From the NCBI GenBank assembly GCA_021818865.1, contig JAKASX010000006.1, positions 1-64,000 on the forward strand: a stretch of 64,000 bases of DNA, given 5' to 3'. The first letter of the stretch is position 1; the number at the start of each line of letters is the position of its first letter. This DNA comes from Acidobacteriota bacterium. Its GTDB lineage: Bacteria > Acidobacteriota > Terriglobia > Acidiferrales > UBA7541. Below are positions 6,178 to 36,090 of this stretch, piece by piece. The translations under genes and the position numbers were made by a program. Under the pieces are notes generated by a model, which was not told the DNA's origin, ran no database searches, and was given only the letters and a program-made list of their open reading frames with translations.

Positions 6178-7506
6178 ATGCGAGCGGCGCGCACGCTCAT
6201 GTACTTCGCCTATAGCCTGCTACTCGCCGTCGGTTTGATCGTCGCGCTGCCGTATTTCGCGGTGAAGGGACTGCGGCATGGGAAATACTGGCCGAATCTG
6301 GCGCAGCGAATGGGCCGTTTGCCGCGGGAGCTGGGCGAAGCGGCGGCGAAATCGCCGGGAGCGATCTGGATTCACGCGGTTTCGGTGGGGGAAGTGGTGG
6401 CGGCGGCGCCGCTGGCGGCTCAGCTGAAGCAAATTTTCCCCCAGCGGCGGCTGATCGTTTCGACGACGACAATCGCGGGACAGCGGATGGCGCGCGAGCG
6501 GATCGCCTTCGCCGACGGCTGGATCTACTTTCCGCTGGATTGGGCGTGGGCGGTGCGGCGGTTTTTTCGAGCGGTGCGACCGGCGCTGGTGGTGATCCTG
6601 GAAGTGGAAATCTGGCCGAATTTCCTGCGCGTGGCGCGGAGGCAACGCGTGCCGGTGATTTTCGCCAGCGCGCGGGTTTCCGAGCGGTCATTCCGGCGGT
6701 ACCGGAGGGTTCGCGGATTCGTACGGCGAGTGTTGCGGGATGCGAGCGCGTTCCTGGCTCAGACGAACGAGGACGCTCAACGCCTTCGGGCGCTCGGGGC
6801 GCCGGCGGAAATCGTGAGCGTGGGCGGAAACTTGAAATTCGACGCGCCAGCTCCCGAACGAAACGCCCTGGCCGAGTGGCTGGAAAAGCGGCGCGAACGG
6901 GAACAGAGAGAGCCGATCATCGTGGCCGGGAGCGTTGTGGCGGGCGAAGAGGACGTAGTGCTGGACGCTTTCGCGCAGGTGCGCGAACGGCATCCCGGCG
7001 CGCTGCTCGTGCTGGCTCCGCGGAAACCGGAGCGATTCGCGGTGGCCGGCGACATTGCGGAAATGCGCGGATGGGGGCTTGCGCGGCGCAGCGCGATGGA
7101 TTTCACGCAGGAATTCGACCGGGAAACGGGCGTGCTGCTGCTGGATACGATCGGGGAGCTGGCCGGGGCGTATACGGCGGCGGATCTGGTGTTCGTCGGC
7201 GGATCGCTGGCGCCCGCGGGAGGGCACAACATTTTGGAACCGGCCGCGCTGGGCAAACCGCCGGTTTTCGGGCGGCACATGGAGAATTTTCGCGAAATCG
7301 CGCGAAGATTTCTCGATGCCGGAGCTGGCGTGCAGGTGGGGACGGCGAATGAATTGGCCGGAGCGTGGAACCGCTGGATGGACGATCCGTGTGCGCGGGA
7401 AACGGCCGGGCGCGCGGCGAAAGAATTGATGGAACGGAATCGGGGAGCGCTGGACCGCGTGATCGATCGCGCGGCGGCGCTGCTGGCCACCGAAGAGGCC
7501 AAATAA
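6178..7506 (+). CDS. waaA: 3-deoxy-D-manno-octulosonic acid (Kdo) transferase
   Basis: A 442-residue GT-B glycosyltransferase of family GT30. It has an N-terminal membrane anchor (about residues 7-27), HAVSVGEVVAAAPL (acceptor-side catalytic Glu region), EVEIWPNFL, NLKFDAP, and the C-terminal donor-binding signature FVGGSLAPAGGHNILEPAAL followed by GRHMENF. It transfers Kdo from CMP-Kdo to lipid IVA on the cytoplasmic face of the inner membrane, the first step of core assembly. An alternative start is the ATG at 6199. It leads an operon in which lpxK follows after 6 bp and the remaining genes overlap. Confidence 0.93.
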   Translation: MRAARTLMYFAYSLLLAVGLIVALPYFAVKGLRHGKYWPNLAQRMGRLPRELGEAAAKSPGAIWIHAVSVGEVVAAAPLAAQLKQIFPQRRLIVSTTTIAGQRMARERIAFADGWIYFPLDWAWAVRRFFRAVRPALVVILEVEIWPNFLRVARRQRVPVIFASARVSERSFRRYRRVRGFVRRVLRDASAFLAQTNEDAQRLRALGAPAEIVSVGGNLKFDAPAPERNALAEWLEKRREREQREPIIVAGSVVAGEEDVVLDAFAQVRERHPGALLVLAPRKPERFAVAGDIAEMRGWGLARRSAMDFTQEFDRETGVLLLDTIGELAGAYTAADLVFVGGSLAPAGGHNILEPAALGKPPVFGRHMENFREIARRFLDAGAGVQVGTANELAGAWNRWMDDPCARETAGRAAKELMERNRGALDRVIDRAAALLATEEAK

Positions 7507-30426: not shown

Positions 30427-31362
30427 TCAGAGATTTCGCCGCCAGGTTTCGGCGACCAGTTTTTTTCCGAAACTGCGATGCGGATGACGGGCGACGCATT
30501 CGAAACCGGCGCGCTGATAAATGCGGCGCGCGGCCAGCAGTTCACTTTGCGTCCAGAGCGTGATTGTGCGGTAGCCGGCCTTGCGTGCGAAGGAAATGCA
30601 CTCCTCGACGAGACGCGAGCCGATGCCGAGACCGCGCGCGGAAGGCTCAACCAGCAGCAGCCGCAGCTTGGCGACTGTTTTCGATTTTTTCACGAGAAAA
30701 ACGGAACCAGCGGGTTCGCCTTCTTTTTCAGCGATCCAGCAGCGCTCGCGGCGACGGTCGATCTGTTGGACGAATTTCGCGACGATTTCGGCCACGAGAG
30801 CTTCGAACTCCTCGTTGTAGCCGTATTCGGCGGCGTAAAGAGCGCCGTGGCGCTCGACCACCCAACCAAGATCGCCCGGGCGCGGGGCGCGCAAATGGAC
30901 GCGCGGATTCCGGTTCGTGGTGGCGCGGCCACCCAGCATGGATTCGACGGTTCCCATCGCTTCGACGATGCGCCTTTGGCCCGAGGGAGACAACGGCCGC
31001 AGAATCGCGCCGACTTCGGCGGCCGAGCGGCGGTCGAGCGGGCGAAACGCTTTCCAGCCGCGCGGGGAGAGCGAGAGCAGCAATTGACGGCCGTCGGAGC
31101 GCGAGCGCTGCTTTTGCAGCAGTCCCTGGCGCTCGAAGCCGGTGAGGATGCGGCTCAGGTAGCCGGGATCGAGGCCCAAATCAGCGACGAGATGGGCGGC
31201 GGTGAGGCGATCGCGATGGGCGAGTTCGTAGAGGACGCGGACTTCGGTGAGAGAGAAGGGGCTGCGATAGGCGCGCTGGTGCAAGAGGCCAATTTTGCAA
31301 GTATAGAAGCGGCTGAAGCGGCGTACGGCTTCGACGCGGCCGGCAAACGGGGTCTCGGGCAT
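30427..31362 (-). CDS. MarR-type HTH regulator fused to a GNAT acetyltransferase
   Basis: A 311-residue fusion: residues about 1-145 are a MarR winged helix (LTEVRVLYELAHRDRLTAAHLVADLGLDPGYLSRILTGFERQGLL) and about 155-311 a GNAT fold with the acetyl-CoA loop VEPSARGLGIGSRLVEECI (Q/RxxGxG/A-like, about 238-256). Such bifunctional proteins are widespread; targets are usually unknown. It has its own promoter and a 15-bp palindrome overlapping the -35 (31394-31423), consistent with autoregulation. It lies 87 bp downstream of the dehydratase on the same strand and could also regulate the carbon-storage genes. Confidence 0.88.
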   Translation of the reverse strand: MPETPFAGRVEAVRRFSRFYTCKIGLLHQRAYRSPFSLTEVRVLYELAHRDRLTAAHLVADLGLDPGYLSRILTGFERQGLLQKQRSRSDGRQLLLSLSPRGWKAFRPLDRRSAAEVGAILRPLSPSGQRRIVEAMGTVESMLGGRATTNRNPRVHLRAPRPGDLGWVVERHGALYAAEYGYNEEFEALVAEIVAKFVQQIDRRRERCWIAEKEGEPAGSVFLVKKSKTVAKLRLLLVEPSARGLGIGSRLVEECISFARKAGYRTITLWTQSELLAARRIYQRAGFECVARHPHRSFGKKLVAETWRRNL

Positions 31363-31449: not shown

Positions 31450-32409
31450 TCAGCGCGCGGCTGCCGACGCGGCGGCGAAATCCACCGCGGTGGTATTTCC
31501 GCCGCTGATTACGACGCCCACGCGCTCGCCCGGCGCGGGAACGTGCTGACGGGAAAGCAGCGCGGCGAATGCGGCGGCGCCACCAGGCTCGGCCACCAGG
31601 CGCGCCGAAGACCAGAGCGCCTGCTGGGCTTGGCGGATGGCGTCGTCGCTCACGAGCACGACGCGCGCCAAGTGCGCGCGGGCGATGGGAAACATCAATT
31701 CGCCGACGCGGCGTGGAGCCAGGGAATCGGCGGCAATGCTGCCAGCGGGAGCGTCCACGGGAGCGCCGGCTTTGAGAGCGGCGGTGAGCGTGGGCGCGCC
31801 TTCGGGCTCGACGCCGATCACCTTGATCGCGCCGGCATACCACGCGGCGATTCCGCCGATCAGCCCTCCGCCGCCGACGGCGACGAGGAGCGTATCGAGC
31901 AGAGGCGCCTGCCGCGCCAGCTCGAGCGCGACGGTGCCCTGGCCGAGCAGCGTTTCCGGCTGATCGTAGGCGTGGATGGGCAACGCGCCCGATTCGCGTG
32001 CCCAGTCTTCGGAAGCGGCGAGGGCGTCGGCATAGCGATTGCCGATGACGACGAGTTCGGCCCCAAATTCGCGAATCCGATTGATTTTCGCGGGCGAGGA
32101 AACGACGGGAACGAAGATCTTCGCTTTCACGCCGAGCTTGCGCGCGGCATAGGCCACGGCGGCGCCGTGGTTGCCGCCGGAAGCGGCGACGACGCCAGCG
32201 GCGGGAATCTGGCGGAGCAGGAGATTGGCGAAGGCGCCACGCGTTTTGAAGGATCCGGCGTGCTGCAATTGCTCGAGCTTCAAAATCAGCGGAAAAGAGG
32301 GCAGGCCGAAATCGGCGCCGTCCGCTTCGAGGATGGGCGTGTAGCGAATGTGCGGCCGAATGGTTTCGTAGGCTGCTCGAATGCTTTTCTGATCGATCGT
32401 TGTCGTGAT
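31450..32409 (-). CDS. serine/threonine dehydratase, PLP-dependent, apparent AUC start
   Basis: The conserved enzyme is about 319 residues. It has TPI..EAD near residue 24-30, the PLP lysine in GSFKTRG (Lys55), SGGNHGAAVAYAARKLGVKAKIF, and the GGGGLIGG phosphate-binding loop. It deaminates Thr/Ser to 2-oxobutyrate/pyruvate. No ATG, GTG or TTG exists in frame before Lys44, except a TTG (32283) inside the conserved LKLEQLQ. The in-frame ATC at 32409 lies 7 bases behind GAGGAG (32417-32422), so translation probably begins there, unless the sequence has an error. Starting at the TTG would lose 42 conserved residues. Confidence 0.8.
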   Translation of the reverse strand: MTTTIDQKSIRAAYETIRPHIRYTPILEADGADFGLPSFPLILKLEQLQHAGSFKTRGAFANLLLRQIPAAGVVAASGGNHGAAVAYAARKLGVKAKIFVPVVSSPAKINRIREFGAELVVIGNRYADALAASEDWARESGALPIHAYDQPETLLGQGTVALELARQAPLLDTLLVAVGGGGLIGGIAAWYAGAIKVIGVEPEGAPTLTAALKAGAPVDAPAGSIAADSLAPRRVGELMFPIARAHLARVVLVSDDAIRQAQQALWSSARLVAEPGGAAAFAALLSRQHVPAPGERVGVVISGGNTTAVDFAAASAAAR

Positions 32410-32457
32410 GTTCGCGCTCCTCGATGCGAATTCTGAATGGCGCCGTCGGCCGAATAG

Positions 32458-33699
32458 TTACTCGCGACCGGGGGGCTTCCCTTGGGCCGAGTCGAGCAAC
32501 TGGCGACATTCACGGGCGATCGCCCAATCCTCCTGCGCCCGAATCACGAGCACGCGGACGGACGAATCGCCCGCGGCGACGTCGGCGTCGCCGGCGGGGT
32601 CCGCGTTTTTCGCGGGATCGAGCCGCAGGCCGAGAAAGGCGAACGGCTCGCACGCGCCGGCGCGAACGTCCGGCGAATTCTCGCCGATTCCGGCGGTAAA
32701 CACCAGCGCATCGAGGCCGCCGAGCGAGGCGAGCATCCATCCGATGCCGGCGCGCAGGCGATGCAGGAAAACGTCGAAGGCGAGCCCGGCGCGAGAATGG
32801 CCCTGCCGCGCGGCGGCGAGAACTTCGCGGAGGTCGCTTGAAACACCGGAAAGGCCGAGCAGGCCGGATTCGCGATTGAGGATGCGGTCGAGATCGTCTG
32901 GAGTGTAGCGATGCTTGCGGGCGAGGTGAATCAGAATGCCGGGATCCACGGAACCCGAGCGCGTGCCCATCATCAGGCCTTCGAGCGGAGTGAACCCCAT
33001 CGTCGTGTCGACGCTGTGGCCGCCGCTGACAGCGGCGAGGGAGCAGCCGTTGCCGAGATGGCAGGTGATTACGCGGAATTCGGCGGGAGTTTTCCCAAGC
33101 ATCCGCGCGGCGCGCTCGGCGCAATAGCGATGATTGATGCCGTGAAAGCCGTAGCGCTCGATTCCCTCGTCGAGCCACGCGTAGGGGCCAGGGTAAACGG
33201 CGGCCGAGCGCGGGAGTGTGCGGTGAAACGCGGTGTCGAAGACGGCGACCTGAGGAACGGAGCCAAGGTGTTTTTCGACCAGGCGCACGCCTTCGATTTC
33301 AGCCCGATTGTGCAGCGGAGCGATTTCGGCGTGGTGCGCGATGGCCTGAAGGACGCGCGCGTCGATGCGCGCGGGTGCGCGAAATTCCGCGCCGCCGTGG
33401 ACGATGCGATGACCAACCGCCTGGATTTCCGACGGCGCGCGAACGGCCGGGGCAGCGCCTTCCCAGAGTCCGCGCAGCATTCGCTCGACTGCGGCGGCGC
33501 GCGTTGTTGCATCGATTCGCTCCTCGATGCGCTCGCCGCGCGAGTTTTCAATGCGCAGCGACGCGGGCTCTTGCGCCAGGCCCCATTCGATTTCGGCTCG
33601 CCAGAGAGCCGGGGGAGGATCGAGCGGGGCGCCGGGCGCCACCTGATAGAGGCGGCACTTCTGGCTGCTCGATCCGGAATTGAGGACGAGAATTTTCAT
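32458..33699 (-). CDS. ackA: acetate kinase
   Basis: This 413-residue ASKHA-fold kinase begins MKILVLNSGSSSQK, with Gln where most AckA proteins have Leu. Further motifs are VGHRIVHGG (about 95), AVFDTAFH, GFHGINHRYC, CHLGNGCSL (about 205), PLEGLMMGTRSGSVDPG (catalytic Arg) and the C-terminal FTAGIGENSPDVR. It converts acetyl-phosphate and ADP to acetate and ATP. It lies 3 bp downstream of xfp, so the two enzymes form a unit that turns phosphoketolase product into ATP. No pta gene is present here. Confidence 0.95.
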   Translation of the reverse strand: MKILVLNSGSSSQKCRLYQVAPGAPLDPPPALWRAEIEWGLAQEPASLRIENSRGERIEERIDATTRAAAVERMLRGLWEGAAPAVRAPSEIQAVGHRIVHGGAEFRAPARIDARVLQAIAHHAEIAPLHNRAEIEGVRLVEKHLGSVPQVAVFDTAFHRTLPRSAAVYPGPYAWLDEGIERYGFHGINHRYCAERAARMLGKTPAEFRVITCHLGNGCSLAAVSGGHSVDTTMGFTPLEGLMMGTRSGSVDPGILIHLARKHRYTPDDLDRILNRESGLLGLSGVSSDLREVLAAARQGHSRAGLAFDVFLHRLRAGIGWMLASLGGLDALVFTAGIGENSPDVRAGACEPFAFLGLRLDPAKNADPAGDADVAAGDSSVRVLVIRAQEDWAIARECRQLLDSAQGKPPGRE

Positions 33700-33702
33700 C
33701 GG

Positions 33703-36090
33703 TCAGTAGGGCCAGGTCCAGTCGCGGATTTCCGGCATGTCGTCGCCGTTCTCGACGATGTACTGCTTGTGCTGGATGAGCCGGTCGCGCAAGCGCTGCT
33801 TGAAATGGCCGGCGACGCGGCCGAGGCGCGGGACCCGGTCGATGACGTCGGAAGCGAGATGGAAACGGTCGAGATCGTTGAGGACGGTCATATCGAAGGG
33901 CGTGGTGGTGGTTCCTTCTTCTTTATATCCGCGAACGTGCAGATTGTCGTGGTTTGTGCGGCGATAGGTGAGCCGGTGAATCAGCCACGGATAGCCATGG
34001 TAGGCGAAGATGATCGGCCGATCGGTGGTGAAAATGGAATCGAAGTCGCGATCGGAGAGACCGTGCGGATGCTCCGAGGATGGCTGGAGGGTCATCAGAT
34101 CGACGACGTTGACGGCGCGGATTTTGATATCGGGAAACGATTGGCGTAGCAGATCGATGGCGGCCAGGGTTTCGAGCGTGGGAATGTCGCCGGCGCAGGC
34201 CATGACGACGTCAGGTTCGCCGCCATCGTCGTTGCTGGCCCAATCCCAGATGCCGATGCCGGCGGTGCAATGGCGGATGGCGGCGTCGCGATCGAGCCAT
34301 TGAAGGGCGGGCTGCTTTCCCGCGACGATCACGTTGACGTAATTGCGGCTGCGCAGGCAATGATCGGCCACCGACAGCAGCGTATTGGCGTCGGGAGGGA
34401 GATAGACGCGGACGACGTCGGCTTTTTTGTTGACGACGTGATCGATGAAGCCGGGATCCTGATGCGAGAAGCCGTTGTGGTCCTGGCGCCAGACGTGCGA
34501 GGTGAGCAGATAGTTGAGCGAGGCGATCGGCCGGCGCCACGGGATTTGGCGGGTCACCTTGAGCCATTTCGCGTGCTGATTGAACATCGAATCCACGATG
34601 TGGATGAACGCCTCGTAGCAGGAAAAGAATCCGTGGCGGCCGGTCAGCAGATAGCCCTCGAGCCAGCCCTGGCACATGTGCTCGCTCAAGACCTCGAGAA
34701 TGCGGCCGTCGGGCGACACGTGCTCGTCGGTTTTGACGAACGGGCCGGTGAACATTTTGTCGGTGACTTCGAATAAGGCGTCGAGGCGATTGGAACTGGT
34801 CTCGTCGGGGCCGAAAACGCGGAAACTCGAGGGATTGAGTTTCATGACGTCGCGTAGGAAGCCCCCGAGGATGCGCGTGGCTTCGGCGATCTCAGTTCCC
34901 GGCTTCGTCACCGGTACGGCGTAGTCGCGGAAATCGGGCATCTGGAGATCGCGCAGCAGCAGGCCGCCGTTGGCGTGGGGATTCGAACCCATGCGGCGGT
35001 TTCCTTTCGGGGCAAGCTCCGCGAGTTCGGGACGCAGGCGGCCCTCGGCGTCGAAAAGCTTTTCGGGGCAGTAGCCGCGCATCCATTTTTCGAGCATCTG
35101 ACGATGCTCCGGATTCGTGGCGGCAGCGGAAATCGGCACCTGATGCGCGCGCCAGGTGCCTTCGACCGGCAATCCATCCACCTCCTTCGGCCCGGTCCAT
35201 CCCTTGGGCGTCCGGAGAACGATCAAGGGCCAGATGGGACGCGCGGCGAATCCCTTCGAGCGCGCCTGCTTCTGAATGGCGGCGATTTCCGCGATTGACT
35301 CTTCGATCGCGGCGGCCATTTTCTGGTGCATCGGATCGGGCTCGGAGCCCTCGACGAAAATCGGCCGATAGCCGCAGCCGGAGAAAAACGCGCCGAGTTC
35401 GTCGTCGGTCATGCGACCGAGCACGGTGGGGTTGTTGATTTTGTAGCCGTTCAGATGAAGGACGGGCAGCACGGCTCCGTCGCGCGTTGGATTGAGGAAT
35501 TTATTTCCATGCCAACTGGTGGCCAGGGGCCCGGTTTCGGATTCGCCGTCGCCGACGACGCAGCAAACGAGCAGATCGGGATTATCGAACGCGGCCCCGT
35601 AGGCATGGGCGAGTGAATAGCCGAGTTCGCCGCCTTCGTGAATCGACCCGGGGGTTTCCGGCGCGACGTGGCTGGGCACGCCGCCGGGAAAGGAAAATTG
35701 CTTGAAGAGGCGCTGCAGGCCGCGTTCGTTTTGCGGCACGTTCGAATAGAGCTCGCTGTAGGTGCCTTCGAGATACGTGTTGGCGACCAGTCCCGGGCCG
35801 CCGTGGCCGGGACCAGTGATGAAAATCACGTTCAAATCGTGCCGGCGAATCATGCGATTCAGATGGACGTAGATGAAGTTGAGACCTGGCGTCGTGCCCC
35901 AATGGCCCAGCAGGCGCGTCTTGATGTCCTCGGGAGCAAGCGGACGGCGGAGGAGCGGATTTTCCTTCAGATAAATCTGTCCGACCGAAAGATAATTCGC
36001 GGCGCGCCAGTAAGAGTTGAGCCGAGCGAGCTCATCGGCGGGAATCGCCGCCGCGGCCGTGGAGGAACGTTTTGCGGAAGGCTTTGCCAT
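33703..36090 (-). CDS. xfp: xylulose-5-phosphate/fructose-6-phosphate phosphoketolase
   Basis: This 795-residue TPP enzyme is full length. Visible signatures are [42 protein letters not shown] (both hallmark XFP patterns), the [11 protein letters not shown] motif (about 170-177) and a C-terminal transketolase-like domain. It splits xylulose-5-P or fructose-6-P with phosphate into acetyl-phosphate plus triose- or erythrose-phosphate. The start ATG follows AAGGGG. It lies 99 bp downstream of glgP with an inverted repeat in the gap, and ackA begins 3 bp later, so these enzymes act in one pathway. Confidence 0.95.

Follow-up and report, generated by a model that had tools for sequence, protein, structure and literature searches.

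The dehydratase locus and its missing canonical start

Where does translation of a gene begin when the conserved N-terminus of its protein lies ahead of every ATG, GTG and TTG in the frame? The question was raised by a stretch of 64,000 nt (the window) of contig JAKASX010000006.1 (GCA_021818865.1) from an Acidobacteriota bacterium of an uncultivated genus, whose genome is labelled G000. The gene is located at 31450..32409 on the minus strand, possesses 319 codons before the stop and is predicted to encode a serine/threonine dehydratase of the PRK08246 type, a fold-type II PLP enzyme. In a profile search, the protein read from AUC scored 443.9 bits with NCBIfam NF006094 (PRK08246, cut-off 331) over profile positions 4-309 of 310. 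The Pfam PALP match scored 237.7 bits, with profile position 1 aligned to residue 17. By score and length, the predicted enzyme is a member of PRK08246.

The dehydratase is the last gene of a conserved trio on the minus strand. The first gene is xfp, which encodes phosphoketolase (33703..36090; NF003619, 1482 bits), and it is followed by ackA for acetate kinase (32458..33699; TIGR00016, 422.5 bits, cut-off 293.4), situated directly upstream of the dehydratase. In each of the four species with the dehydratase, xfp and ackA are found ahead of it. The ackA stop codon TAA (32460-32458) lies upstream of the ATC and in frame with the dehydratase in the window. Whichever frame is read, ATG, GTG and TTG are absent from the 48 nt separating this stop from the ATC, and no such triplet occurs in the dehydratase frame from the ackA stop down to codon 43. 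The first in-frame canonical triplet is a TTG at codon 43 (32281..32283, minus strand). The ATC proposed as start codon (32407..32409, minus strand) stands behind a Shine-Dalgarno sequence GAGGAG (32417..32422), separated by a spacer of 7 nt (32410..32416). The first-pass annotation had placed an ATC exactly 7 nt behind GAGGAG, and its coordinates for the open frame (31450-32409) were correct.

Downstream of the dehydratase (window 30427-31362, minus strand), a gene for a MarR-type regulator fused to a GNAT acetyltransferase was observed. It is syntenic in the genomes G001 and G003 of the same genus; in G002 it was not found in the interval that follows the dehydratase, up to the next gene. 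An Rfam search found no RNA element near the dehydratase, and folding of the start regions showed nothing unusual (z-scores -0.7 to 1.4).

Start codons in the genus and in outside relatives

The dehydratase is present in four species of the genus (G000, G001, G002 and G003), while no close orthologue was found in G004, the fifth genome of the genus compared. The G003 gene (92% identity, identical in sequence to JAKAOH010000002) reads GAGGAG-6-ATC, the G002 gene (79% identity) AAGGAG-7-ATC and the G001 gene (78% identity, identical in sequence to JAGWOX010000004) AAGGAG-7-ATT. Thus GAGGAG or AAGGAG at a spacing of 6-7 is found in four of four species, and the alignment of orthologues proposed in the first-pass annotation returned ATC or ATT, never ATG, at this AUC/AUU (AUY) site. 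None of the four genes has a canonical start able to supply the conserved N-terminus. This lack of a canonical in-frame supplier, together with an AUH codon kept across species at Shine-Dalgarno spacing, constitutes the pattern by which an AUH start was recognized. In G003 and G001, an in-frame TTG or ATG occurs 22-48 codons upstream, within ackA and, by inspection, without a Shine-Dalgarno sequence; the frame holding these triplets is interrupted by stops in G000 and G002. The exact start codon of G001 is less certain because several AUY codons lie near the start.

Outside the genus, a different picture was observed. Across other genera, classes and phyla, about 80 homologues possess ATG, GTG or TTG no more than a few codons away from the AUY site. 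The only other exceptions were L041 and L103 along with the partially aligned L096 and L085, of which L085 has ATG once a gap is allowed. With AUC and AUU in the genus orthologues behind a Shine-Dalgarno sequence and canonical starts beyond it, the earlier claim of a genuine AUC start was supported. An assembly or sequencing error turning ATG into ATC might be suspected, as the window, like the other genomes of the genus, appears to be metagenome-assembled. The separate records of three other species (JAKAOH010000002, JAGWOX010000004 and G002) read ATC or ATT, and the agreement within the genus against canonical starts outside it therefore refutes the error, whose probability is next to nil. 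In a tree of 86 proteins, the AUY dehydratases formed one clade with support of 100/99, which is most simply explained by one change in a common ancestor; the AUY state would have arisen a single time, ahead of the split of the four species, and then been kept.

A few additional features were noticed around these starts. L041 (MNEX01000208, ~1640-1700), a homologue that the tree places close to the AUY clade, has no canonical start; GGAGGAG is located at the end of its upstream gene, which resembles pilT, with an in-frame ACG 5 nt on that is possibly another non-canonical start. In the alphaproteobacterial homologue L103 (VAZT01000422, ~1-80), which lies close to the edge of its contig, no canonical start was found in frame after the upstream stop. 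A AATCTGTCGTATCCTC block common to G001 and G002 (L036 and L170) lies 30-50 nt ahead of the dehydratase start in spacers that are otherwise diverged. It is missing from G000 and G003 and is perhaps a promoter or operator.

The in-frame position of the ackA TAA in the window, and the presence of ackA upstream in all four species, would also suit read-through of the ackA stop or ribosomal frameshifting, giving an AckA-dehydratase fusion for which no start codon is needed. Among the relatives, however, the dehydratase is not in a constant frame with respect to ackA, the spacers differ in length, and the G002 spacer exceeds 200 nt and contains in-frame stops. What is conserved is a Shine-Dalgarno sequence with AUY behind it rather than a slippery site, and a fusion is regarded as extremely unlikely. 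The G002 spacer between ackA and the dehydratase (L170, ~6500-6680) was also found to contain repeated AAATTTCAAATTTGAGAT-like units.

Constraint on the N-terminal codons

The 38 codons numbered 5-42 (32284..32397, minus strand), all upstream of the first canonical triplet, are gap-free across the four species and show purifying selection. Their pN/pS was 0.33-0.67 in six pairs, with Fisher p from 0.12 to 7e-5 and below 0.05 in five of the six. The constraint was weaker in the G002 pairs, which gave 0.6-0.67 with G000 and G003 (p 0.045-0.12). The remainder of the gene had a pN/pS of 0.08-0.26 across the four species and contained no stops or frameshifts. A less constrained N-terminus is likewise a feature of the relatives that start with ATG (0.17-0.33 compared with 0.05-0.20 for the rest).

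These values bear on the possibility that the gene is untranslated and decaying after loss of its start codon. Such decay would fit with AUY being inferior to ATG and with the higher pN/pS of the N-terminus than of the rest. It is very unlikely in view of the low pN/pS of the intact remainder, the similar gradient in the ATG-start relatives and the Shine-Dalgarno sequence retained in four of four species.

Initiation at an internal canonical codon, the TTG at 32283 or a later one, would give an N-terminally shortened enzyme. The TTG is the first canonical triplet in frame, and the protein read from it still scores 406 bits, above the family cut-off. It is present only in G000 and G002, being replaced by CTG in G003 and G001, and no Shine-Dalgarno sequence lies ahead of it; no internal canonical triplet is common to all four species before codon 94. 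The 38 codons that precede it are constrained, and the stretch that would be lost is conserved in homologues and in solved relatives (serine racemases and a threonine deaminase), which align from residues 4-10. The first-pass annotation had held that the family reaches 42 residues above the first ATG, GTG or TTG, and this was borne out: PALP aligns from residue 17, and a start at the TTG would cost the PALP match its first 26 positions and the PRK08246 match 40. The TTG was judged not to be the start, and an internal start is considered highly improbable. Because the four species have no internal start in common ahead of codon 94 and do not conserve the upstream frame, truncation, read-through and frameshifting are all poor explanations. 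By the conservation of its N-terminus, the predicted protein would begin at the AUY site and not later.

Rarity of the start and its possible role

To our knowledge, very few bacterial genes are known with starts besides AUG, GUG and UUG, and gene callers cannot find such starts. One of them is pcnB of E. coli, in which an experimentally shown AUU start keeps expression low. The dehydratase resembles pcnB in being a gene other than infC whose expression an AUU start (in G001) would keep low, but it is another gene from another phylum and its start is deduced from sequence.

To place the dehydratase among other genes of the genus, ~1.0 Mb of G000 was compared with 1.5 Mb of G002, which covers roughly one quarter to one third of either genome, and 194 orthologous ORF pairs were found. 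Candidates were pairs in which, for both genomes, the alignment reached 10 residues or more upstream of the first canonical start, a feature apparent in 21 cases. Only the dehydratase and infC, among the 194 pairs, combined a coding signature and a Shine-Dalgarno sequence with the lack of a canonical start. Most of the 21 candidates were rejected as frame shadows or overlaps with upstream genes, having changes at codon positions 1 or 2 or pN >= pS. In the 117 pairs with aligned starts, ATG was found in 82, GTG in 22 and TTG in 13, a tally that serves as a description and not a test because starts were picked among canonical codons. By chance, 4.4% of AGGAG/phase combinations show ATC or ATT 5-9 nt downstream in sampled DNA of this genome. 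At 5-6 nt, the Shine-Dalgarno matches of the dehydratases rank towards the long end of those seen in sampled genes, and a long match may offset a weak codon. Separately, a 77-aa frame without an early canonical start was observed on the plus strand of L227 (6623-6853); it is conserved in G002 with third-position changes and is perhaps an antisense shadow.

The infC gene starts with ATC in G000, G001 and G004 and with ATT in G002, preceded by GGAGGT where the upstream sequence was read; AUY initiation therefore works in these cells. In E. coli infC starts with ATT, and in Streptomyces with ATC (PMC5472188). The first-pass annotation had described AUC starts as exceptional; AUC is indeed a very rare start, but it was already documented for infC of Streptomyces and is used by infC of this genome too. 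Repression of rare starts by IF3 is established for infC and sigR, and Streptomyces sigR has an IF3-repressed GTC start that sets its ratio to RsrA, the product of a co-transcribed gene (PMC5472188). The dehydratase is similar to infC in having AUY behind a good Shine-Dalgarno sequence, kept across species. However, infC encodes IF3 and controls itself, whereas the dehydratase is a metabolic enzyme, so any IF3 control would be one-way. With sigR it shares a conserved rare start, missed by annotators, in a gene other than infC, but sigR has GUC, encodes a sigma factor and is under experimentally demonstrated IF3 control. Unlike its ~80 homologues outside the genus, the predicted dehydratase is placed in the small known class of rare-start genes, along with infC, pcnB and sigR. 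A literature search found no report on this dehydratase gene.

The reading that we consider highly probable is a conserved AUC/AUU start behind a Shine-Dalgarno sequence, with weak initiation open to IF3, which arose once and was kept, probably for a low level of the dehydratase. The AUC, or AUU in one species, stands at an optimal distance behind a clear Shine-Dalgarno sequence and would start translation in vivo. The initiator tRNA, with anticodon CAU, would mispair with AUC and AUU at the third base, so that initiation would be inefficient and could be rejected by IF3, as happens at infC. As a physiological reason, the weak start would probably hold an enzyme degrading serine and threonine at a much lower level than the phosphoketolase and acetate kinase from the two preceding genes, which would be made in quantity. 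A single substitution would turn either ATC or ATT into ATG. Synonymous sites have undergone about one change in the deeper species pairs, and still a reversion is seen in none of the lineages; this suggests that the weak start is maintained, four species being short of proof. A further possibility, rather unlikely but worth noting, is that AUC/AUU acts as an IF3-sensing valve, by which dehydratase output, unlike that of xfp and ackA, would track the ratio of IF3 to ribosomes and through it the growth state.

A metabolic gene that keeps AUC or AUU through a genus, drifting between C and U but never to AUG, hints at a weak start under maintenance. The dehydratase would offer a natural case in which to test gene control by IF3 beyond infC, and the comparison of relatives provides a simple recipe by which more genes with AUC/AUU-type starts may be found.
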